From assembly GCF_000739935.1 (NCBI RefSeq), contig NZ_BBJU01000003.1:124001-188000 (forward strand): a stretch of DNA of 64,000 bases. The letters are read 5' to 3'. Numbering within the stretch: position 1 is the stretch's first letter; each line of letters begins with the position of its first letter. Both the position numbers and the translations under genes were made by a program. Of the stretch, positions 806 through 37,595 are shown in pieces. Below the pieces are notes generated by a model. That model saw only the letters and a list, made by a program, of their open reading frames with translations. It was not told the origin of the DNA and ran no database searches. Source of the stretch: Agrobacterium rubi TR3 = NBRC 13261. Its GTDB lineage: Bacteria > Pseudomonadota > Alphaproteobacteria > Rhizobiales > Rhizobiaceae.

Positions 806-1417
806 ATGAAATCGGGAAATGGCCCGCTCCGGGTCGGCATTGGCGGACCTGTCGGCTCTGGTAAAACGGCTCTGACGGAGAAACTCTGCAAGGCGATGAG
901 TGCGGATTATTCGGTCGCCGTCGTCACCAACGATATCTACACCAAGGAAGATGCCGAAGCGCTGGTGCGCATGCAGGCGCTGCCGTCGGAGCGGATCGTC
1001 GGCGTGGAGACGGGTGGTTGCCCGCATACCGCCATCCGTGAGGATGCGACCATCAATCTCCAGGCGATTGCCGGTCTCAACGAGCGCTTCCCCGATCTCG
1101 ACATTGTCTTCATCGAATCGGGCGGTGACAATCTGGCTGCGACCTTTTCGCCCGATCTTGCCGATATCACTATCTATGTGATCTCGGTTTGTCAGGGTGA
1201 GGAAATTCCGCGCAAAGGGGGGCCGGGCATCACCCGTTCAGACCTGCTCGTCATCAACAAAAAGGATTTGGCGCCTTATGTCGGTGCCGATCTCGGTGTG
1301 ATGGACAGTGACGCCACGCGCATGCGCAAGGATATGCCTTTCGTCTTCACCGATATGAAGCGGGGCGAGGGCGTGGATAATATCGTCGGCTTCCTGAAAC
1401 AGCACGGTGGTCTGTAA
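806..1417 (+). CDS. ureG: Urease accessory GTPase UreG
   Basis: UreG is the SIMIBI-class GTPase that powers nickel insertion into urease. The 203-residue product has the P-loop [11 protein letters not shown] near the N-terminus, the nickel-site region [10 protein letters not shown] around residue 70, the ESGGDNL motif and the NKKDL guanine-specificity motif. The ATG at 806 is chosen because GGAAGGA lies about 8 bp upstream; an upstream in-frame TTG at 791 would overlap that site. It is the last urease gene here, followed by a strong terminator near 1.5 kb. The urea it helps consume can come from AllA encoded at 52 kb. Confidence 0.97.
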
Positions 1418-1500
1418 GGCTCGACAGGCGCTGAAACGGGATCATCGCTGTTTCAACGACTTTCCTCTCGATCAGGTCGTTCGATTCTGACTTGGTCACA

Positions 1501-1531
1501 CAAAAACGCCGGGCAATGCCCGGCGTTTTTG
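1501..1531. terminator. Bidirectional intrinsic terminator between ureG and the RND pump gene
   Basis: A GC-rich inverted repeat (ACGCCGGGCA / TGCCCGGCGT) is flanked by an A-run on the left and a T-run on the right, so it can terminate both ureG (+) and the converging efflux gene (-). Confidence 0.85.
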
Positions 1532-1547
1532 ATGTGCTGCTGTGGCT

Positions 1548-4500
1548 TTATTCTGCGGCGAGTGGTGGCAGGCGCAGGACATTACTGGAATTGCCGGTAT
1601 TTTTTGGGCTCGTTCCGTTTTTCTGCTCGATGTTTGCCAGGCGCTCTTCAAGGCCCGATACGGCGTCCTGATTGGTACGCGCTGCTTCCGACAGTTCCTC
1701 ATTGGAGAGAACCGGATGCTCCTCTTCCTTCTTGCCAATGAAACGGCCGAAGAGGTGGGCGAGGAGCATCGACAGGTCGTCCATGATGAGGAAGAAGGCT
1801 GGGACGACGACCAGAGACAGGACCGTCGAGACGATGATGCCGCCGATCACAGCGATGGCCATGGGCGAGCGGAACGAGCCGCCTTCGCCAACGCCCAGCG
1901 CCGACGGCAGCATGCCCGCCGACATGGCAATCGAGGTCATGATGATGGGACGCGCGCGCTTGCGACCGGCTTCCACCATGGCATGAACCCGCTCCATGCC
2001 GTGGCGGCGCATTTCGATGGCGAAATCCACCAGCAGAATGGCGTTCTTGGTCACGATACCCATCAGCATCAGGATGCCGATGAGAACGGGCATGGAGAGC
2101 GCGTTGTTGGTGATGATGAGCGCCACCGCGACACCACCGATGGCCAGTGGTAGCGACAGCAGAATGGTGAAGGGCTGGATGACATCCTTGAATAGCAGGA
2201 TGAGAACGACCAGCACCAAAAGCAGGCCGAGCAACATGGCATTGGTGAAGCCGCGCAGCATTTCGCCCTGCACCTTGGCGTCACCGCTTTCGGCAAGACG
2301 CACGGTTGGCGGCAATTGCGTTTCTGCAACGATGCGCCTGAACTCGGCAGAGGACGTATCCAGCGCCGTGCCGAAGGGAACATCGGAGCCGATGGACACC
2401 ACGCGGTTGCGGTCGTTGCGCTTGATGGAGCTTGGACCTTCCGAATAGTCGATATCGGCCACGCTATAGAGCGGAACCGTGGCACCTGCCGCCGTCTTGA
2501 TTTTCAGCGCGCGGATAGAGGCCAGGTCGCGTCGGACATCCAGCGATGCCTGTACGCGAATGGGGATTTGCCTGTCATCCAGCGAAATCTTTGTCAGTTG
2601 TGCATCAATATCACCGATGGTGGCGACACGCACGGTCTGCGATATCTGCTGCGGCGTGATGCCGAGGCGAGCGATCTCATCCTTGCGCGGGCGGATTTGT
2701 AGTTCGGGGCGTGGAAGCGCACCTTCCGAGCTGACATTGGCCAGGATAGGCGAGGCGCGCAGATGCGATTCCAGCGTGCTGACCGCCTTTTGCAAATCCT
2801 CTTCGCTCGAGGACAGGAAGTTGAAGCTCAGTTCCCGTTCGCCGCGGTCATTGAGTTTGATGATGCGCACATCCGGAATTGTGTTCACCTTGGCGAAAAT
2901 ATCCCGCTCCACATCCCATTGCGGGCGCGTTCTGCCATTGTCCTGCACTTTGGGGAGATATTGGCCAATCAGCGGAATGGAGCCCAATCCGTCATTGACC
3001 AGCGTTTTCAGCAGGGAGTGGTCGATATGCTGGAGAATGACGCGCACCGTTGCGCGCCGCAATTCCAGATCACCCTTTGGCGATGCGCCACCTAGGATGA
3101 AGATGCTTTCCACGCCATTGATGTCGCGGATCGCCTCATTGATCTTTGAGGTCGTCGCGTCGGTTTCTTCCAGCGTTGCATTGGGCGGAAGTTCGACGGA
3201 GAGCACGACGCGCGAGGCGTCATCCGGCGGCAGGAAGCTGCCGGGCACGCCGCTCAGAAGCACGATCGAGCCGACTAGGAAGCCGATGGCCCCGATGAGT
3301 GTCAGATAACGCGCCCACCATCTGCTCGTGGTTGCGCTCACCATCTGCGTATAGGCCTTCATCAACCAGCCGTCATTGTCGTGATGGTCATCGACGGCGT
3401 CGTCGGAACGCATGAGGTAGGCGGCCATCAACGGGGTGATGAGACGCGCGACCATGAGCGAGAAGAACACCGAAAAGGCGACTGTGAGGCCGAACTGGAT
3501 GAAGTATTGGCCCGGCACACCAGGCATGAAGGAGACCGGCACGAAAACCGCGATGATGGTGAAACTGGTCGCGATCACCGCAAGCCCGATTTCGTCGGCA
3601 GCTTCCAGCGAGGCGCGATAGGGCGATTTGCCCATCTTTATGTGGCGGGAGATATTCTCCACCTCCACGATGGCATCGTCCACCAGAATACCGGTGGCCA
3701 GCGTCAGGGCGAGGAAGCTGACGAGATTGAGCGAAAAGCCCAAGACATCCATGACCCAGAAGGTGGGGATGGCCGACAAGGGAAGCGCCACGGCAGCAAT
3801 CAAGGTCGCGCGCCAATTGCGCAGGAACAGCAACACGACGATGACGGCGAGGATGGAGCCTTCCACCAGCGTGTGAAGGGCGGCCTCATAGTTGCCATAG
3901 GTGAAATAGACCGAGTCATCCACCATTTCGATCGAGACGTTCGGGTGGTCTGCACGCACCTTGTCCAGATTTTGCGCGACGGTTTCCGCAACCGACACTT
4001 CGCTGGCACCCTTGGAGCGGAAAACGGCGAAGGTCACGCCCGGATTGCCGTTGAAGCGTGAGAAGGACTTTGGCTCCTCATAGGTATCGGTGATGGTGCC
4101 GAGTTCCGACAATGTAACGAAACGGCCGCTGGACAGCGCAATGGTGGTGTTGGAAAGCTGGGCCACATCACGGGCATCACCCAGCGTGCGAATGGTCTGT
4201 TCGTTGCCCGCCACCTGTCCACGACCGGAGCCGAGGTCGATATTGGTGCCACGCAGCTGTTCGTTCACGTCGGCCGCGGTAATGCCATAGGCATCCAGTT
4301 TGGCCGGGTTGAGCGATACGCGCACTTCGCGGTCCGCACCGCCGTAACGGTCGATCTTGCCAACGCCCGCCTGACCCTGAAGCGCCCGCTTGATCGTGTC
4401 ATCCACAAACCAGGAGAGCTCTTCCAGCGTCATGTTGGGTGACGAGACGGCAAAGGTCTGGATCGCCTGTCCCTCGACGTCGATCTTGCTGACAACCGGC

Positions 4501-16039: not shown

Positions 16040-16116
16040 TGGCGCACCCGACAGGATTCGAACCTGTGACCTTTGGAATCGGAATCCAACACTCTATCCA
16101 GCTGAGCTACGGGTGC
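16040..16116 (-). tRNA. tRNA-Arg (anticodon CCG)
   Basis: On the minus strand the sequence folds as a complete cloverleaf. The acceptor GCACCCG pairs with CGGGTGC, the D arm is GCTC...GAGT, the anticodon arm TTGGA-TTCCGAT-TCCAA presents CCG, and the T arm is ACAGG-TTCGAAT-CCTGT. The CCA end is encoded (TGG at 16040-16042 on the plus strand). It reads the CGG arginine codon. Confidence 0.97.
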
Positions 16117-27904: not shown

Positions 27905-27946
27905 TCATGAGATGCAGGCGTCGAATCGTCTTTGAAAGGAACTACC

Positions 27947-28942
27947 GTGCTGATTTCTCAAATCAAGGATTCGAGCGGAAACATCGTCGTCGCCGTTCGT
28001 GAAGAGGGTGGCCAGGCGCGCTCCGTCAACAATGCCGGGTCGGTTTACGCGCTCGCGATGGAAGCCGCCAACAGCGATAAGTCGCTGGCGGATGTGATCG
28101 CCGCCAAGGGTTACGGCGATGCCGTCGATCTCAAGGAAGCCTATGCCGAAGGCCGCTTCCTGCCGCCGATCACGCATCCGGATCCAGCCCATCTGCATCT
28201 GACGGGCACCGGCCTGACCCATCTCGGTTCGGCCGCCACTCGCGACAGCATGCACAAGAAGACCAGTGAAACATCCGAAGAGAGCCTGACGGACTCGATG
28301 AAGATGTTCAAGATGGGTCTCGAAAACGGCAAGCCAAAGCCTGGCCAGACCGGCGTTCAGCCCGAATGGTTCTATAAGGGCAACGGCAATGTTGCCGCCG
28401 CACCTGGGGCTGCGCTGCTGTCTCCGTCTTTCGCGCTGGATGGCGGCGAAGAGCCTGAAATGGCCGGTATCTACGTGATCTCGGATAAGGGCGAAGCTGT
28501 GCGTGTCGGTTTTGCCGTTTCCAACGAGTTTTCCGATCACGTGACGGAGCGGGTGAACTATCTCTATCTCGCCCATTCCAAGCTGCGTCCAGCCAGCTTC
28601 GGCCCCGAAATTCGCGTCGGCGCACCGCCATCCGACATTCGCGGCACGTCCCGTATTCTGCGCGATGGCAAGGTCATTTTCGAAAAGCCGTTCCTGTCGG
28701 GTGAAGACAACATGTCTCACACCTTTGCCAATCTGGAATATCACCACTTCAAATATGGTCTGTTCCGTGCGCCTGGCGAAGTGCATGTGCATATGTTCGG
28801 CACGGCCACGCTGTCCTTTGCCGATGGCGTCAAGCCGGAAGCGGGCGACGTATTCGAGATCGAAGCCGAGGGTTTCGGTCTGCCCCTGCGCAACACGCTC
28901 AAGGTTGAGATGGAAGAGACGATTTCGGTCCGCCAGCTTTAA
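27947..28942 (+). CDS. gguC: GguC / AraD1-family protein
   Basis: A 331-residue soluble protein of the fumarylacetoacetase-fold GguC/AraD1 family, recognised from PPITHPDPAHLHLTGTGLTH and the acidic, metal-binding region EPEMAGIY. Some relatives act as dehydratases on 2-keto-3-deoxy sugar acids, so a catabolic role for sugars imported by ChvE-GguAB is plausible but unproven. I take GTG 27947 as start because AAAGGA sits 6 bp upstream; a TTG at 27932 would place the site inside the gene. Terminated by a strong hairpin at 28963-28996. Confidence 0.88.
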   Translation: MLISQIKDSSGNIVVAVREEGGQARSVNNAGSVYALAMEAANSDKSLADVIAAKGYGDAVDLKEAYAEGRFLPPITHPDPAHLHLTGTGLTHLGSAATRDSMHKKTSETSEESLTDSMKMFKMGLENGKPKPGQTGVQPEWFYKGNGNVAAAPGAALLSPSFALDGGEEPEMAGIYVISDKGEAVRVGFAVSNEFSDHVTERVNYLYLAHSKLRPASFGPEIRVGAPPSDIRGTSRILRDGKVIFEKPFLSGEDNMSHTFANLEYHHFKYGLFRAPGEVHVHMFGTATLSFADGVKPEAGDVFEIEAEGFGLPLRNTLKVEMEETISVRQL

Positions 28943-29221: not shown

Positions 29222-29251
29222 GAAACGGCGCGACAAAAGCCGCGCCGTTTC
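29222..29251 (-). terminator. Terminator of the octapeptide-repeat gene
   Basis: GAAACGGCGCG / CGCGCCGTTTC is a perfect 11-bp stem with an 8-nt loop, 33 bp beyond the repeat gene's stop on the minus strand and followed in that direction by ATTTTG. The 341-bp interval 28943-29283 otherwise holds only the gguC terminator and no convincing gene. Confidence 0.75.
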
Positions 29252-29283: not shown

Positions 29284-32200
29284 TCAGGTTGTCTGATAGG
29301 CGTGGATGATGGCGGCGACCTGAGCATTATTCAGCGACTGCATCTGTGTCGATGTGAAGCTTTCGATTGCGGTATCCGACAGGCCTTCGATTGACGTTGT
29401 CGTCAGGCCAGCAAGAGCCTGGGTGCCGAGGGCAGCGATTTCATCCGTGGTAAAGCTGTTGAGCTCGTCGGATGAGAGTGTCGCGACCTGTGCGGCACTG
29501 AGAACGCTAATCTGGGCGCTGGTCAGTGCTGCGATGCTATCGGAAGTGAAGGCATCGAGCTGGTTGGTGTTGAGAGCAGCAATCTGAGTGGAGCTGAGTG
29601 TCGCCACCTGAGTAGACTGCAAGCCTGTGATGGCGGCTGTCGAGAGAGCCTTCACCTGCAGAGCGCTCAATCCACCAAGTTGTGCGGTGGTGAGGGCACC
29701 TGCCTGGTCTGACGTCAGGGAGCCAATCTGTGCGGTGCTCAGCTTGGTGACCTGTCCGCTGCTGAGGGCAGCGACCTTGTCGGTTGTCAGGCCTGTGAGG
29801 GCAGTTGTCGTCAAGCCGGACAGAGAGGCGGCGCTCAGAGATGCAATCTCGTCTGTCGAGAAGCTGTTCAGCTCAGTGGAGGAGAGAGTAGCAACCTGCG
29901 CTGCACTCAAGGCACCGACCTGTGCGCTTGTGAGTGCTTCGATGTTGTCAGAAGAGAGAACATCGAACTGGCTGGTCGTCATCGCTGCGACCTGCGCGGA
30001 GCTCAGTGTCTGAACCTGCGTGCTCTGCAATCCGAGAAGTGCAGCGGTTGTCAGGGCCTTGACCTGTGCGAGGCTCAGGGCGGCGATCTGACCCGATGTC
30101 AGAGCACCAACCTGATCCGATGTCAGGGAGCCGATCTGAGCTGTGCCCAGCTTGGCAACCTGTCCGCTGCTCAGTGCGGCGACATTTTCCGTCTTCAGAC
30201 CGGCCAAGGCCGTCGTGGACAGACCGGCCAGAGATGCAGCGCTGAGCGATGCAATCTCGTCGGTAGAGAAGCTGTCGAGTTCAGCCGAGTTGAGAGTTGC
30301 GACCTGGGCCGCACTCAAAACGCTTACCTGGGCGCTGGTCAGTGCTTCGATGTTGTCAGAAGAGAAGGCATCGAGCTGGTTGGTGTTCAGCGCTGCAATC
30401 TGTGTAGAGCTGAGGGCCACAACCTGAGTGGACTGCAAGCCTGTGATGGCTCCTGTCGACAGGGCCTTCACTTGCAGAGCGCTCAATCCGCCAATCTGTG
30501 CGGTGGTGAGGGCACCAGCCTGGTCGGATGTCAGCGATGCGATCTGGTTTGCGGCCAGCTTGGCAACCTGTGTCGTGGACAATGCGACGAGATTGTCGGT
30601 TTTGAGACCGGCAAGTGCCGTCGTTGTCAGGCCAGACAGAGATGCTGCACTGAGGGATGCGATTTCGTCCGTGGAGAAGCTGTTCAGCTCGTCAGACGAC
30701 AGAGTGGCAACCTGTGCCGCACTGAGCGCGCCGACCTGGCTGCTTGTCAGAGCTTCGATGTTGTCAGAAGAGAATGCGCTCAACTGGCTTGTGGAGAGTG
30801 CCGTCAGCTGGCTGTTCTTAAGAGCGACAACCTGTGTGCTCTGAAGGCCTGCCAACATCTGGGTGGTGAGCGCGGCAATCTGCGTTGCAGAGAGTGCTGC
30901 GATCTGGTCTGTCGTCAGAGAACCGAGCTGGGTCGATGTGATCGACTTGATCTGGTTGGCGCTCAACGACGCAACCTGTGTGGTTGTCAGCGCCGAGAGA
31001 TTGGCTGTGCCCAATGCGGCGAGTGCGCCCGTCGTCAGTCCTGACAGAGATTTGACGTTGAGAGCAGCCATTTCGTCTGTGGAGAAGCTGTCGAGTTCGG
31101 CACCGCTCAATGTTGCGACCTGAGCTGCGCTCAAGACACCAATCTGCGTGCTGGTCAGTGCTTCGATGTTGTCGGAAGAGAAGGCGTCGAGCTGGTTGGT
31201 GTTCAGCGCAGCAACCTGTGTCGAGCTGAGTGCTACAACCTGCGTGGACTGCAAGCCTGTGATGGCAGCTGTCGAGAGGGCCTTCACTTGCAGAGCGCTC
31301 AATCCACCAATCTGTGCGGTGGTGAGAGCACCGGCCTGGTCGGACGTCAGGGATGCGATCTGGCTTGCGCCGAGCTTGGCAACCTGTGTGGTGGACAGTG
31401 CGACGAGGTTGTCTGTCTTCAGACCAGCAAGTGCCGTCGTTGTCAGGCCGGAGAGCGATGCTGCGCTGAGAGATGCGATTTCGTCGGTCGAGAAGCTGTT
31501 CAGCTCATCGGACGACAGGGTCGCAACTTGGGCCGCGCTGAGGGCGCCGACCTGGCCGCTGGTCAACGCTTCGATGTTGTCAGAGGAGAAAGCCTGTAGC
31601 TGGCTGGTGGAAAGTGCCGTCAGCTGGCTGTTTTTCAGAGCGATGACCTGTGTGCTCTGAAGACCTGTCAACATATCTGTCGTGAGGGCGGCGATCTGCT
31701 TTGCGGACAGTGCTGCGATCTGGTCTGTCGTCAAAGAACCCAGCTGGGTCGATGTGATGGACTTGATCTGAGCGGTGCTCAGCGAGGCAACCTGTGTGGT
31801 TGTGAGGACCGAGAGATTGGCAGTGCCCAATGCGGCGAGTGCGCCCGTTGTCAGTCCCGACAGGGACTTGACGCTGAGAGCAGCCATTTCGTCGGTGGAG
31901 AAGCTGTCGAGTTCGGCACCGCTGAGGGTAGCGACCTGGGCTGCGCTCAAAACGCTGATCTGCGTGCTGGTCAGTGCTTCGATGTTGTCGGAAGAGAAGG
32001 CACCAAGCTGGTTTGTGGTCAGCGCAGCGACCTGGGTCGAGCTGAGCGCGACGACCTGAGTCGATTGCAGACCCGAGATGGCAGCTGTGGTGAGTGACTT
32101 GACCTGAAGAGCGCTCAATCCGCCAATCTGTGCGGTGGTGAGAGCACCAGCCTGGTCGGATGTCAGGGATGCGACCTGGCTTGCGGCCAACTTGGCAACC

Positions 32201-33531
32201 TGTGTGGTGGAGAGAGCAACGAGATTGTCGGTCTTCAGACCAGCAAGTGCCGTCGTTGTCAGGCCGGAGAGCGATGCGGCGCTCAGAGACGCGATCTCGT
32301 CGGTCGAGAAGCTGTTGAGTTCGTCAGACGACAGGGTGGCAACCTGGTTGGCGCTGAGTGCACCGATCTGGCTGCTGGTCAGAGCTTCGATGTTGTCAGA
32401 GGAGAAAGCTTGTAGCTGGCTGGTGGACAGTGCTGCGAGCTGGCTGTTTTTCAGAGCGACAACCTGTGTGCTCTGAAGACCCGACAACATATCGGTTGTG
32501 AGAGCGGCGATCTGCTTTGCGGACAGTGCCGAAATCTGGTCGGTGGTCAAAGAGCCGAGCTGGGCAGAGGTGATCGACTTGATCTGTGCTGTGCTGAGCG
32601 ACGCAACCTGTGTGGTTGTCAGTGCCGAAAGGTTAGCTGTGCCGAGTGTGGCGAGTGCGCCTGTCGTCAGTCCCGAGAGGGACTTAATGCTGAGAGCAGC
32701 CATCTCGTCTGTGGAGAAGCTGTCGAGTTCGGCGGCGTTGAGGGTTGCGACCTGAGCGGCGCTCAAAACGCTGATCTGTGTGCTGGTCAGTGCTTCAATG
32801 CTGTCGGAGGAGAAGGCCTCGAGCTGGTTCGTGGTCAGTGCAGCGATTTGGGTCGAGCTGAGCGTGGCAACCTGCGTGGACTGCAAGCCCGCAATAGCAG
32901 CTGTCGAAAGCGACTTGACCTGAAGAGCGCTCATTCCACCGAGTTGTGCAGTGGTGAGGGCGCCAGCCTGGTCCGATGTCAGGGACGCAACCTGGTTTGC
33001 AGCGAGCTTGGAAACCTGGGTTGTGGAAAGAGCGACGAGGTTGCCGGTCGACAGACCGGCAAGTGCCGTTGTCGTCAGACCAGACAGGGCTTTTACGCTG
33101 AGGGATGCAATCTCATCGGTGGAGAAGCTGTTGAGCTCGGCAGACGAGAGAGTGGCAACCTGTGCTGCACTCAGGGCGCCAATCTGCGCGCTTGTCAGTG
33201 CTTCGATGTTGTCGGACGAGAAGCTTTCAAGCTGGCTCGAATACATCGACACGATCTGGCTTGTGGAAAGACCGGCGACCTGTTCTGTTCCGATGGCGGC
33301 GATCTGGGTTGCGCTCAATCCAACGATCGCCTTCGCGGAGATGGCCGAAACTGACGCGCTGCTGAAAGAGGAAATGGCATCGGTGCTGAATGCGCGGATC
33401 TGCGCAGACGACAGGGCCGCAACCTGACTGCTGCTCAAAGCCGCGACGTCGTCGGTCTTAAGGCTGGCGATCGATGTGGTTGAAAGCGAAGAAATCTGCT
33501 TGATGGAAAGCGAAGAGATAATAGAAGTCAT
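29284..33531 (-). CDS. Giant octapeptide-repeat protein, function unknown
   Basis: A 1415-residue protein made almost wholly of one octad, L/F-[ST]-[ST]-x-Q-[ILV]-x-[AS], repeated 175 times without a single insertion or deletion (residues 8-1407). Seven residues precede the array and eight follow (IIHAYQTT). Octads are grouped in units of 17 (136 residues), each marked by FSSDNIEA or a variant, and adjacent units alternate between two types. There are no cysteines, few charged residues, no signal peptide and no membrane span. The S/T at position 2 with Q/D/E at position 5 looks like a helix capping box, so a tightly wound helical solenoid is possible; a beta-type solenoid cannot be excluded. 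ATG 33531 is the start; the 58 codons upstream in the longer frame are unrelated in composition. No secretion genes adjoin. Flanked by its own terminator and an 850-bp upstream region. Confidence 0.85.
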   Translation of the reverse strand: MTSIISSLSIKQISSLSTTSIASLKTDDVAALSSSQVAALSSAQIRAFSTDAISSFSSASVSAISAKAIVGLSATQIAAIGTEQVAGLSTSQIVSMYSSQLESFSSDNIEALTSAQIGALSAAQVATLSSAELNSFSTDEIASLSVKALSGLTTTALAGLSTGNLVALSTTQVSKLAANQVASLTSDQAGALTTAQLGGMSALQVKSLSTAAIAGLQSTQVATLSSTQIAALTTNQLEAFSSDSIEALTSTQISVLSAAQVATLNAAELDSFSTDEMAALSIKSLSGLTTGALATLGTANLSALTTTQVASLSTAQIKSITSAQLGSLTTDQISALSAKQIAALTTDMLSGLQSTQVVALKNSQLAALSTSQLQAFSSDNIEALTSSQIGALSANQVATLSSDELNSFSTDEIASLSAASLSGLTTTALAGLKTDNLVALSTTQVAKLAASQVASLTSDQAGALTTAQIGGLSALQVKSLTTAAISGLQSTQVVALSSTQVAALTTNQLGAFSSDNIEALTSTQISVLSAAQVATLSGAELDSFSTDEMAALSVKSLSGLTTGALAALGTANLSVLTTTQVASLSTAQIKSITSTQLGSLTTDQIAALSAKQIAALTTDMLTGLQSTQVIALKNSQLTALSTSQLQAFSSDNIEALTSGQVGALSAAQVATLSSDELNSFSTDEIASLSAASLSGLTTTALAGLKTDNLVALSTTQVAKLGASQIASLTSDQAGALTTAQIGGLSALQVKALSTAAITGLQSTQVVALSSTQVAALNTNQLDAFSSDNIEALTSTQIGVLSAAQVATLSGAELDSFSTDEMAALNVKSLSGLTTGALAALGTANLSALTTTQVASLSANQIKSITSTQLGSLTTDQIAALSATQIAALTTQMLAGLQSTQVVALKNSQLTALSTSQLSAFSSDNIEALTSSQVGALSAAQVATLSSDELNSFSTDEIASLSAASLSGLTTTALAGLKTDNLVALSTTQVAKLAANQIASLTSDQAGALTTAQIGGLSALQVKALSTGAITGLQSTQVVALSSTQIAALNTNQLDAFSSDNIEALTSAQVSVLSAAQVATLNSAELDSFSTDEIASLSAASLAGLSTTALAGLKTENVAALSSGQVAKLGTAQIGSLTSDQVGALTSGQIAALSLAQVKALTTAALLGLQSTQVQTLSSAQVAAMTTSQFDVLSSDNIEALTSAQVGALSAAQVATLSSTELNSFSTDEIASLSAASLSGLTTTALTGLTTDKVAALSSGQVTKLSTAQIGSLTSDQAGALTTAQLGGLSALQVKALSTAAITGLQSTQVATLSSTQIAALNTNQLDAFTSDSIAALTSAQISVLSAAQVATLSSDELNSFTTDEIAALGTQALAGLTTTSIEGLSDTAIESFTSTQMQSLNNAQVAAIIHAYQTT
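29311..33510 (-). repeat. In-frame 24-bp tandem repeats with an exact 408-bp higher-order period
   Basis: The 4200-bp array equals 175 x 24 bp. A marker sequence (GATGTTGTC-like, plus strand, encoding the Asp-Asn-Ile or Asp-Ser-Ile of FSSDNIEA) begins at 29533, 29941, 30349, 30757, 31165, 31573, 31981, 32389, 32797 and 33205: ten copies exactly 408 bp apart. Similarity is highest between units two steps away (816 bp), shown by alternating text such as LSGLTTTALAGL and LSGLTTGALAAL. Confidence 0.95.
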
Positions 33532-34382
33532 GGACACGTGCCCCCGTTGATAACTGGCCAAAGTGCCATTCACCGTTTCAATTGCGCAGCGCAACCCTAA
33601 GGCCGCATCCGATCCCCCGGATACGCTCATGCGCGAATTGACACAGTGCCCCAGTCGCCCGATGCGTGCATCGACCGGTTGAGCGTCCGTTCTGGACAAT
33701 AGCAATATTTAAGCAGGACATGGCTCGAGAGAGCCGGCGCAACGGAAGGGCATCATGCGTACAGAACTTTGGACAGTTCTGATCCCCACGCCATCGGACA
33801 TTAGAGCTTCGTTTTTAGCACGAGACTTTTGGTAAAAGTGACGCACCTGAACAGGCGCATCACGAACACCTCACATGACCGTTATCACTATCGTCTGATA
33901 AGTGTGAAATTTTGGTTAACGATGGTTATTCGCTTATGTCTTGTTGAAGTTACCATGGAGTCTAACACTGTCACATATTCTTAATATCAAAAAGAACAGG
34001 CATCCATACCGGGTCGTCCGGGATATTTTTCTTACTATATCGACCCGATATGAGATTTTTATTTGCTTACAAAGAAGAGAAATGGCACGGCCCCATCAAG
34101 GGTGACTTTTTTTGGCCTTACAGCGGTTTTCAACGCATAACGCGATAATGAATATTCACGGTTGCAAGTATCATCAATAACGGGGGTGCATTTTTACGTT
34201 TCTGGTTATATAAAACACGTCATCGGACGATCTAGACTCTGTATCGCAAGTTGTTCTGCTCATTGTCCGGTAATGCTGAACGAGAAGGTCAAAATCTTCT
34301 ACGAACGCACGTATGCCCGCCGCGGTGAAGCGGCGTGCGAATGTGTTGTTTTTGATTCGTCTGGTCTATACTTGTGCCGCAG
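33532..34382. other. 850-bp non-coding region upstream of the repeat gene
   Basis: A+T-richer than its surroundings from about 33800. No convincing gene: an 85-codon frame at 34162-34419 runs into the transglutaminase gene on the other strand and has no ribosome site. One inverted repeat (CGGGTCG at 34010-34016, CGACCCG at 34041-34047) could be an operator or RNA hairpin. It probably holds the repeat gene's promoter and the 3' end of the transglutaminase operon, possibly also a small RNA. Confidence 0.5.
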
Positions 34383-35204
34383 TCAGCTTTGCGACTGGGA
34401 TTGGCTTTGCGCTTCTTGAACCGTCACCGATACGGTGAGGCTTTCGCCGGAAAGGCCGACGCGCATACCTGAAACGGGCGCGCAATCGCGGTAGCAAAGA
34501 CCGCTTGCGATGCGGACATAGCGTTCGTCCGGGCAAACTTTGTTCGCCGCATCAAAACCCACCCAGCCGAGCACGGGAACATGGACTTCCGCCCATGCAT
34601 GGGTGGCGACCTGTTCAGCGACATCTTCCATCATCAGGTAGCCCGAAATGTAACGAGCGGGCATGCCCATCTGGCGTGCTGCCGAAATCAGGATATGGCT
34701 GTGGTCCTGGCAGACACCCTTGCCGGCTTCAAGCGCTTGCTCGGCCGTCGTCGCGGTGCCTGTCGATCCCGTGACATACTCGACTTCGAGGTGAACGAGC
34801 GCCATCAACTCGTGCAGACGTTCGAGCGGCGTATCGCCTGTCGCCTGTCGTGCAAGGTCGCGAATGAGCTTGCCGGGTTTTGTCAGCGGCGTCTCGCGCA
34901 TGAAGAGCCAAAGTGGGGCATTGCCGGTGTGAGCGCCGAAAACGCCAGCCTTGTCGATCGTTTCGACTTCGCCGCGCGCCACGACCTTTACCGCACTGCG
35001 CGGGCCCTCGGTTTCCACCAGTTCGACACGGTTGCCGAAGTGGTCGTCATAGCGCACTTCCAGCTTTGCGCCATCGACGGTCACGTCCCAGTCGATCACC
35101 GTTTGCGTAGGCCCGTCGGCAGGCGTCAGCCGCAACCGTTGCAGGGAGTAGGGCACCGGCTCGTCGTAGAGATACTCGGTCGTGTGGTTGATGTTCAGAC
35201 GCAT
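34383..35204 (-). CDS. Transglutaminase-like cysteine protease family protein
   Basis: A 273-residue cytoplasmic protein with an N-terminal beta domain (MRLNINHTTEYLYDEPVPYS) and a transglutaminase core. The full triad is visible: Cys in GKGVCQDHSH, His in THAWAEV and Asp in GWVGFDAANK. Such enzymes cleave or form amide bonds. The C-terminus ends in a simple (QS) repeat. It starts at 35204 with GAGG upstream and is the last gene of the ATP-grasp / alpha-E / transglutaminase operon, a widespread triplet predicted to make and process a peptide or amide-linked product. Confidence 0.9.
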   Translation of the reverse strand: MRLNINHTTEYLYDEPVPYSLQRLRLTPADGPTQTVIDWDVTVDGAKLEVRYDDHFGNRVELVETEGPRSAVKVVARGEVETIDKAGVFGAHTGNAPLWLFMRETPLTKPGKLIRDLARQATGDTPLERLHELMALVHLEVEYVTGSTGTATTAEQALEAGKGVCQDHSHILISAARQMGMPARYISGYLMMEDVAEQVATHAWAEVHVPVLGWVGFDAANKVCPDERYVRIASGLCYRDCAPVSGMRVGLSGESLTVSVTVQEAQSQSQSQS

Positions 35205-35225
35205 ACCGTATCCTCGTCTCACCGC

Positions 35226-36167
35226 TTACTGGTAGAAGCGGTAGCCTTCCGTGATTTCCTGCCCCAGCTGTCCGTTCTTGTGAATGAACAGTTCCAGGAA
35301 CTCGTGCAGACCCTGATCCATGACGCGGTTGATGGTCGTCTTCTGAAGCGTCGCCCGGATGGCTTCAGCGGTTTCATGTGCCTTGTGGCGGTCTTCATAT
35401 TCATGCGCCAGATAGCCCAGATTGCTGACGATCTTGTCGTAGCAATAGGCAAGCGAGCGCGGCATGCGACCATTGAGGATGAGGAAGTCCGCGATGTTGG
35501 ATGGTTTGTACTCGGCGTCATAGACCCAGCCATAGGATCTGTGGGCCGATACCGAGCGCAGGATCGATTCCCATTGGGCATTGTCGAGCGACGACCCTAC
35601 TTGCACCGCCGCTGGCAAAAGCACGTAATATTTCACGTCCAGAATGCGGGCGGTGTTGTCGGCGCGTTCGATGAAGGTGCCGATGCGCGAGAAATTGTAG
35701 AGATCGTTGCGCAGCATCGAGCCGTGGAACGCACCGCGTACCAGTCCGGCCCTGTGCTTGATGGCATCGATGACCTGCGGCAGTTCCGCCGCCTTCTGTT
35801 TTCGGCTGAAGATGGTCTTGAGTTCCATCCAGAACTCGTTGGTTGCTTCCCATGTCTCACGTGTCAGGGCCGTGCGCACCATGCGGGCGTTGTTCCTGCC
35901 GAATTCGATGCAGGACATGACGCTCGATGGATTGGCCTTGTCGCGCAGCATGTAGTCGATGGCGTCAGCTGTCGTGACCTTCTCATGCTTTTGGAGAAAT
36001 TCTTCGTGCGCGCCTGCGCTTTGCAGCACGCCATCCCAATCCTCGTCACCGCTGCCGCTGCGTGTCAGCGAGACACGCATGCCTGCGTCCACCAGTCGGG
36101 CAATGTTTTCCGCACGTTCGATATAGCGGAACATCCAGTAGAGTCCGTTCGCCGTTCTTCCCAGCAT
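35226..36167 (-). CDS. Alpha-E domain protein (DUF403)
   Basis: A 313-residue, mostly helical protein with the alpha-E hallmark near the start (ARTANGLYWMFRYIERAEN-like: LGRTANGLYWMFRYIERAE) and a repeated helical half with FIERADNTARILD. Alpha-E proteins are almost always encoded beside a circularly permuted ATP-grasp and a transglutaminase; some copies are fused to them, implying a physical complex. Function unproven. It follows the ATP-grasp gene by 3 bp and precedes the transglutaminase gene by 21 bp. Confidence 0.92.
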   Translation of the reverse strand: MLGRTANGLYWMFRYIERAENIARLVDAGMRVSLTRSGSGDEDWDGVLQSAGAHEEFLQKHEKVTTADAIDYMLRDKANPSSVMSCIEFGRNNARMVRTALTRETWEATNEFWMELKTIFSRKQKAAELPQVIDAIKHRAGLVRGAFHGSMLRNDLYNFSRIGTFIERADNTARILDVKYYVLLPAAVQVGSSLDNAQWESILRSVSAHRSYGWVYDAEYKPSNIADFLILNGRMPRSLAYCYDKIVSNLGYLAHEYEDRHKAHETAEAIRATLQKTTINRVMDQGLHEFLELFIHKNGQLGQEITEGYRFYQ

Positions 36168-36170
36168 GGC

Positions 36171-37595
36171 TTAGTCCTCCAGTACCCACGTATCCTTGGT
36201 GCCGCCACCCTGGCTGGAATTCACCACGAGCGATCCCTGCTTGAGGGCAACGCGTGTCAGCCCGCCGGGGATGATCTTCACCTTGTCTGACACCAGAACG
36301 TAAGGGCGAAGATCGACGTGGCGTGGGGCAATTCCGTTTTTCACCATGATCGGCACTGTGGACAGGGAAAGCGTGGGCTGTGCGATGTAATTCGAGGGAC
36401 GGGCGCGCAGCTTGTCTGCAAACAAAGCGCGTTCCTTCTTAGAGGCCGTCGGGCCAACCAGCATGCCGTAGCCACCTGAGCCGTGAACCTCCTTCACCAC
36501 CAGATCGGCCAGATTGTCGAGAACGTATTTCAGGCTGTCGGGCTCGGAGCAGCGCCATGTCGGCACGTTTTCCAGCAGGGGTTTGCGGCCCGTGTAAAAC
36601 TCGACGATCTCCGGCATGTAGGAATAGATCGCCTTGTCGTCCGATATTCCCGTACCCGGCGCGTTGGCGATGGTGATGTTTCCGGCACGATACACATCCA
36701 TGATGCCGGGAATGCCAAGCGCCGAATCGGGGCGGAAGGTGAGGGGGTCGAGGAAATCGTCGTCCACCCGGCGATACAGCACGTCGATGGCCTCATAACC
36801 ACGCGTCGTGCGCATCTTGACCTTGCCGTCCATGACGCGCAGGTCAGATCCTTCCACCAACTCGACGCCCATCATATCGGCAAGAAACGAATGCTCGTAA
36901 TAGGCGGAGTTGTGAATTCCCGGCGTCAGGACCGCGACGCGCGGCTTGCCTTTGCAGCCCGGAGGGGCTAGCGATGCCAAGGATTGGCGCAGTTGATAAG
37001 GATAGTCCTCGACGCGCTGGACCTTGTTTTCGTGGAACAGTTCCGGGAACATCTGCATCATCGTTTCGCGGTTTTCCAGCATGTAGCTGACACCGGAAGG
37101 GGTGCGGGCATTGTCTTCCAGAACGTAGAACTGGTCTTCGCCGGTGCGCACGATATCGGTGCCGACGATGTGGGTGTAAACGCCGCCCGGCGGTTTGAAG
37201 CCGATCATCTCGGGCAGGAAGGCCTCGTTGCGCTCGATGAGTTCGCGGGGAATGCGACCGGCGCGGATGATTTCCTGCTTGTGATAGATGTCGTCGAGAA
37301 AGGCGTTGAGTGCCAGCACCCGCTGCTCGATGCCTTGCGCCAGCTTGCGCCATTCGCGACCGGAAATGATTCGCGGGATGATATCGAAGGGGATGAGCTT
37401 TTCGGCGCTGTCTGCATGGCCGTAAACGGCAAAGGTAATGCCGGTTTTTCGAAATATATTCTCGGCATCCCTGGATTTCTGGATCAGGTGCGCTCTGTCC
37501 TGGCGGCTATACCAGTCGTTGTATTTCTCATATGGGCTTCGCGGCGTTGAGTCCGCATCTATCATTTCATCAAATGCCAACTTCAGGTTCCCCAT
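36171..37595 (-). CDS. Circularly permuted type 2 ATP-grasp protein
   Basis: A 474-residue protein predicted to form peptide or amide bonds using ATP. Recognisable segments are PFDIIPRIISGREWRKLAQG (near residue 70), VLEDNARTPSGVSYMLENR, PGTGISDDKAIYSYMPEI and VVKEVHGSGGYGMLVGP (ATP-binding lysine and Gly-rich loop). First gene of the three-gene operon. Substrates are not known for this group; the pairing with a transglutaminase protease suggests opposing synthesis and hydrolysis of the same linkage, which is inference. Confidence 0.92.
   Translation of the reverse strand: MGNLKLAFDEMIDADSTPRSPYEKYNDWYSRQDRAHLIQKSRDAENIFRKTGITFAVYGHADSAEKLIPFDIIPRIISGREWRKLAQGIEQRVLALNAFLDDIYHKQEIIRAGRIPRELIERNEAFLPEMIGFKPPGGVYTHIVGTDIVRTGEDQFYVLEDNARTPSGVSYMLENRETMMQMFPELFHENKVQRVEDYPYQLRQSLASLAPPGCKGKPRVAVLTPGIHNSAYYEHSFLADMMGVELVEGSDLRVMDGKVKMRTTRGYEAIDVLYRRVDDDFLDPLTFRPDSALGIPGIMDVYRAGNITIANAPGTGISDDKAIYSYMPEIVEFYTGRKPLLENVPTWRCSEPDSLKYVLDNLADLVVKEVHGSGGYGMLVGPTASKKERALFADKLRARPSNYIAQPTLSLSTVPIMVKNGIAPRHVDLRPYVLVSDKVKIIPGGLTRVALKQGSLVVNSSQGGGTKDTWVLED

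Follow-up and report, generated by a model that had tools for sequence, protein, structure and literature searches.

The repeat gene and its locus

The 64-kb stretch of DNA analysed here (hereafter the window) contains one long gene built almost entirely of a repeated octapeptide, whose position and immediate surroundings are listed in Table 1. An array detector requiring at least ten chained octads in one frame found this gene as the sole array in the window. Nothing unusual stands out among the other genes identified in the frames scanned, which include those for efflux, sugar transport, LysR regulators, a sensor kinase, a helicase, urate oxidase and a chemotaxis receptor; the names GguC, CheD and CheB are putative assignments from sequence. 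The only Rfam match at the gathering threshold in the window is a tRNA-Arg (CCG) at 16040-16116.

Table 1. Features of the ALTTAQ-repeat locus (window coordinates)
Feature	Position	Strand	Basis or remark
GguC-like gene, convergent neighbour, synteny anchor	27932..28942	+	no Pfam match
Terminator-like hairpin, 13-bp stem, just 3' of the stop	29222..29251	-	count of such sites in the region not above chance
ALTTAQ-repeat gene, 1415 aa; ATG at 33531, stop 29284-29286	29284..33531	-	reading frame and Pfam
Last, degenerate octad IIHAYQTT	29287..29310	-	overlaps the 11-residue helix ending the C-terminal model
175 in-register octads: 10 units of 17 plus 5 octads	29311..33510	-	octad count
Conserved N-terminus MTSIISS	33511..33531	-	translation
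Inverted repeat CAGAAC-N8-GTTCTG in conserved upstream block	33762..33781	-	possible regulator site, from sequence only
Transglutaminase-like, Alpha-E and circularly permuted ATP-grasp neighbours	34383..37595	-	transglutaminase-like/Alpha-E relatives near ALTTAQ and GT41 in L113, L114, L141 and L144

The ATG start was preferred over an upstream TTG because both the start and the ribosome-binding region before it are kept in five syntenic copies (the window and four relatives). The same five copies keep the upstream block that holds the inverted repeat, a pattern absent from the stretches examined around the two paralogs, and a scan for sigma-70-like promoters returned none.

After seven residues, the encoded protein consists of 176 octads in a single register. 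Position 1 is L, F, I or M in all 176 octads, Ser or Thr stands at position 2 in 140 of them and at position 3 in 131 (271 in total), Gln stands at position 5 in 101 and Ile, Leu or Val at position 6 in 165. As the hydrophobic first position stays in register throughout, the array contains no insertion or deletion, in agreement with the first-pass annotation, which had counted 175 octads; the first of these indeed starts at 33510 and the 175th ends at 29311. The same annotation considered seven residues before and eight residues after the array as non-repeat. This holds for the seven, but the last eight form a degenerate 176th octad directly followed by the stop. Both ends resemble those of relatives: MTSI[IV] starts 45 of the 59 family frames whose start fits the search pattern, and many relatives end like QVxA[VI]IxAY, to which the window end is similar.

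Compared with itself, the window protein shows an identity of 0.80 when shifted by 34 octads, 0.64 when shifted by 17 and 0.62 when shifted by 51, against a median of 0.31 for shifts that keep the register and 0.09 for those that do not. The proposed exact period of 408 bp is borne out by this self-comparison, by Tandem Repeats Finder, which also reported it, and by a marker octad spaced 136 residues apart throughout. This marker, FSSDNIEA, was said to recur ten times; the ten slots do exist at exactly that spacing, but the exact letters fill only seven of them, the remaining three being FSSDSIEA, LSSDNIEA and FTSDSIAA. Likewise, units two apart are more alike than neighbours on average, as had been stated (nucleotide identity 0.787 versus 0.644), but this similarity is carried by units 2-8 only, units 1, 9 and 10 being divergent. 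Between units, dN/dS is 0.16-0.26: purifying selection acts on the protein sequence, while synonymous positions have diverged widely. The combination of high mean pS (0.48-0.64) and low mean pN (0.12-0.27) marks the array as an old, selected coding sequence and not a fresh tandem expansion.

An array adjoins gguC in 10 of the 39 genomes of the genus, the window's own included, several copies being cut by contig ends; for G023 the comparison covers 300 bases. The five syntenic copies that could be read through encode 1415, 1415, 1415, 1279 and 1279 residues, a difference of exactly one 136-residue unit. In the G030 ortholog the best lag is 51 octads, not 34, so the 34-octad amplification is a local event atop an older periodicity. 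Of the history first envisaged, from octads to a 17-octad unit and then to an amplified pair of 34, the hierarchy (8 residues, 17 and 34 octads) is real, but the 17-octad period is not just the amplification history of this gene. In another genome (G033, locus L046), the syntenic array is broken into overlapping frames with undetermined bases, through a frameshift or an assembly error.

Family membership and nearest known proteins

Although the repeat had not been recognised as belonging to a described family, the window protein matches Pfam PF20080 (ALTTAQ_rpt) with 733.1 bits against a curated cut-off of 26.4 (E 7.7e-227), in 58 matched stretches covering its whole length, and its tandem octads follow the pattern L-[ST]-[ST]-x-Q-[IVL]-x-A. 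Judged by its sequence, the gene is an ordinary member of this named family, and nothing contradicts its membership. PF20080 is known by name; searches of the open literature by name and accession found nothing describing the family or its function, and broader searches gave nothing on the octad repeat among the matches listed. The superhelix period, charge stripes, length rule and glycosyltransferase link described below come from the present analysis.

By sequence, the only solved chain matching below 1e-5 is 9zem_A, named HeliScrew4 (E 1.3e-14). This 120-residue chain of LTPEQIAA-like octads aligns octad on octad with the window protein but is much shorter and more regular, and its name suggests a designed or consensus screw; a literature search for HeliScrew by name found nothing. 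Its absence from the 50 fold-search matches listed says nothing either way.

Other assignments were considered and rejected. Leucine-rich repeats, of about 20-29 residues with one beta strand each, gave a score of 43.9 for PF23952 (cut-off 27.9) and a score under the cut-off for PF13855; they are ruled out by the 8-residue unit and by models devoid of strands. Some relatives are annotated as ice-nucleation protein, which is a beta-solenoid of octads; no such family occurs in the Pfam table of the window protein to E 10, and the models are helical. TAL-effector-like repeats are similarly absent from that table. A scan of genome contigs with the whole protein confirmed no relative, perhaps since repeat patterns make poor seeds, and phage records gave no match.

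Association with GT41 and candidate routes of export

A TPR-GT41 glycosyltransferase gene was found in the flank of the array at all eight plasmid loci chosen for diversity out of 58 records (Rhizobium, Pseudorhizobium, Rhodovastum, Niveispirillum, Cereibacter and Pseudomonas). GT41 loci were also collected by scanning genome contigs with a GT41 alignment, and among the best 80 of at least 586 confirmed candidates, 73 have an ALTTAQ array at most 10 kb away; two of the seven arrayless loci (L151 and L168) lie on contigs shorter than 4.5 kb. The same 80 loci contain GLF in 58 cases, queried flagellar or chemotaxis genes in 17 and the type I secretion gene HlyD in one. Around the arrays of 11 relatives taken from the best genome matches, GT41a is present at five loci and was not found at L032, L033, L037, L038, L039 and L040.

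The two genes also occur together at the level of genomes. Among 101 related genomes, 31 have both, two ALTTAQ only, seven GT41 only and 61 neither; within the genus (39 genomes), these numbers are 27, one, none and 11. Arrays without GT41 were observed in G057 (long arrays) and G017 (short arrays). In a phylum sample of 398 genomes, many of which come from one family and are hence not independent, GT41 is present in 19 of the 28 ALTTAQ genomes and in 133 genomes overall, 114 of them without PF20080. The proportion is 17 of 18 for genomes with at least 20 listed PF20080 matches and 2 of 10 for those with at most six. Listed coordinates place array and GT41 within about 13 kb of each other in G466, G446, G144, G172, G140, G202, G134, G176 and G234. 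The best single array score of this sample belongs to a 5446-aa PF20080 frame in G466 (C1, about 2816852-2829397), where the last PF20080 match listed and GT41 are about 4 kb apart. The association of GT41 with the ALTTAQ family is strong.

The 5.29-Mb genome that contains the window has three PF20080 loci: the window gene, a 2387-aa paralog and a 734-aa paralog. The 2387-aa paralog is flanked by GLF and a TPR-GT41 gene (GT41a) and, at its opposite end, by fliF, and five flagellin-domain genes belong to the same cluster; the region (C47:62001-118000, loci L080, L028 and L081) comprises flagellins, fliF, chemotaxis-like genes, two TPR-GT41 genes and a UDP-galactopyranose mutase gene (GLF) besides the repeat gene itself. 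Just one flagellin-domain gene was found elsewhere in the genome, a frame of 598 aa (L170, about 1400-3200, contig C55) which is nearly twice as long as the others; the 734-aa paralog is situated about 4 kb from it. At the window locus, GT41 was not found beside the array. However, the four loci named in Table 1 carry an array, GT41 and relatives of the transglutaminase-like and Alpha-E neighbours within one 22-kb stretch, so that a GT41 copy may have disappeared from the window locus, which may use the enzyme encoded elsewhere in the genome.

Since its relatives often lie beside a sugar-adding enzyme, the window protein is probably a sugar-coated rod, and its glycosylation by GT41 is suggested by this association together with the Ser/Thr content. 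Known systems offer partial parallels. FlmG, a TPR glycosyltransferase, is reported to modify the six flagellins of Caulobacter (PMC7591256), and an HMW1C-like enzyme is reported to mediate N-linked glycosylation of the HMW1 adhesin, which follows two-partner secretion and is modified on Asn (PMC3012730). The likeness would be one of workings, a glycosyltransferase gene that accompanies the gene of a large substrate on the surface or in the flagellum; the ALTTAQ protein would differ from HMW1 by its predicted helical fold and by modification presumed to fall on Ser/Thr.

These parallels also lend themselves to another account, in which GT41 would be a FlmG-like flagellin glycosyltransferase and the ALTTAQ protein a helper (scaffold, docking rod or chaperone) for glycosylation or flagellar assembly, and not the acceptor. 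The positions of both paralogs close to flagellin genes, the flagellar or chemotaxis genes found at some GT41 loci and the activity of FlmG itself would fit such a role. However, 63 of the best 80 of at least 586 GT41 loci have no queried flagellar or chemotaxis gene and 73 have an ALTTAQ array, making ALTTAQ the tighter partner of GT41, and we consider the helper role unlikely.

As to a possible export, the indications differ among relatives. Type I secretion genes adjoin relatives on Pseudomonas and Cereibacter plasmids, and other relatives adjoin flagellar export genes or flagellins. The flagellins of the window's own genome begin with MTSIL, MTSIK, MSSIN and MTNIL and the window protein with MTSII; this common MTSI-like start is a likeness that gives a lead toward flagellar type III export. 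Neither a signal peptide nor a membrane anchor was recognised by eye in the window protein, which has no fused surface domain either, as would be expected if it remained cytoplasmic as an elastic or ruler-like scaffold. Against this stand the type I secretion genes beside the plasmid relatives and at one of the best 80 of at least 586 GT41 loci, and the non-repeat region that ends the Pseudomonas relative; a cytoplasmic scaffold seems to us a doubtful reading.

Predicted fold, periodicity and proposed role

AlphaFold2, given an alignment made of shifted copies of the window protein alone, modelled residues 1-415 and 1008-1415 with pLDDT of 96.0 and 96.7 and pTM of 0.85. Both models contain one short helix per octad and no strands, with an 11-residue helix at the C-terminus. 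A fold search with the first model gave weak matches, among others to armadillo-type solenoids and mesothelin; in these, each repeat spans about 40 residues and comprises two or three helices, unlike the window protein with its one helix per 8 residues.

In the window gene and its syntenic and distant relatives, the strongest similarity lags are mostly 7, 10, 17, 24, 27, 34, 41, 44 and 51 octads, nearly all of them near whole multiples of 3.4 octads (the lag comparison that includes the G030 ortholog does not comprise L035, which has masked bases, nor L030, L031 and L040, missed by the start pattern). Members built on other units follow the same rule: a Niveispirillum locus (L086, 10825-16767) has a 24-octad unit with 93% octad identity, corresponding to about seven turns, and L083 has lag peaks at 27 and 44 octads. 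When multiples of 17 were removed, lags near 3.4k remained more alike than others in all 19 proteins tested (out of 21, two being too short, and second copies of two loci not being counted), and the mean over proteins was best at 3.40. Taken singly, 10 of these 19 proteins peak at 3.38-3.44 and nine at other harmonics of 17 (2.44 or 8.4-8.8).

The distribution of charges was examined in the 72 of 78 distinct proteins that were long enough. In 67 of the 72, the strongest periodicity of the net charge per octad lies at 3.35-3.45 octads (exceptions: L115, L160, L031, the G015 ortholog and L083). The angle separating acidic from basic residues has a median of 163 degrees and is no smaller than 120 degrees in 66 of the 72, the six exceptions being L090, L091, L161, L028 (the 2387-aa paralog), L031 and L039.

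Array lengths, scanned over periods of 2-20 octads, are also best described by about the same value: 3.40 for type A (R 0.99, 7 proteins) and 3.39 for type B, to which the window protein belongs (R 0.87, 34 proteins with 16 distinct lengths). This set consists of complete in-register proteins, 30 proteins with a non-whole octad length, frames at locus ends and unknown residues having been left out. The p value at 3.4, 5e-5, is the floor of the test, and such shuffle tests overstate independence because the proteins are related.

Sampling at whole octads does not distinguish 3.4 from a mirror or alias value. The simplest account of these observations is a superhelix that would complete one turn every 3.4 octads. 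With this value 17 octads make exactly five turns, so that the 408-bp unit would be a natural unit of change, and the most likely origin of the 17-octad period is a whole number of turns of a helical screw. That the pattern is instead a fossil of nested duplications (7 + 10 = 17, and further sums), propagated by recombination among those segments that resemble each other most and devoid of geometric cause, appears very unlikely: each of the lags 7, 10, 17, 24 and 27 can be composed from 7 and 10, nearly half of the proteins tested singly peak at other harmonics of 17 and quantised lengths would also result from recombination between similar segments, but distant members with other units (24 in L086, 27 and 44 in L083) retain lags near 3.4k, the charge spectrum peaks there in nearly all proteins, and L036 and L086 fit 3.42-3.44 with strong lags at 14, 38, 48 and 58.

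Our preferred reading, to which we give about an even chance (0.5), is that the window gene encodes a glycosylated, charge-striped alpha-helical screw, exported and displayed as a rod or fibre with a role in adhesion or as a coat. Each L-S/T-S/T-x-Q-I-x-A octad would form one short helix, and the octads would wind at 3.4 (27 residues) per turn into a long uninterrupted alpha-helical screw of about 52 turns. Acidic and basic stripes would run on opposite outer faces, suited to side-by-side packing. An OGT-like TPR-GT41, in this genome encoded beside the 2387-aa paralog, would modify the screw in the cytoplasm before its export and display on the cell surface or flagellum, where the glycosylated rod or fibre would serve in adhesion or form a coat. 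Duplications would survive where they leave the stripes in phase.

If this screw model is correct, the family has a structural constant, 3.4 octads per turn, readable from sequence alone, an exact higher-order DNA period is accounted for by complete turns of the encoded superhelix, and the bacterial GT41 enzymes of the OGT-like kind have a likely acceptor dedicated to them. More speculatively, and with rather low confidence, ALTTAQ proteins could represent a new class of charge-striped alpha-screw glycoproteins, modified by GT41 on Ser/Thr and exported by the flagellar type III or type I route, whose opposite stripes would zip neighbouring screws together to form a sheet or a sheath on the cell or the flagellum and whose genes would lengthen or shorten by whole superhelical turns, because other changes would bring ends and stripes out of phase. 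In 27 chosen proteins, Phe lies about 70 degrees from the acidic stripe, Gly lies on the basic side, and Ser/Thr are spread nearly evenly around the turn.
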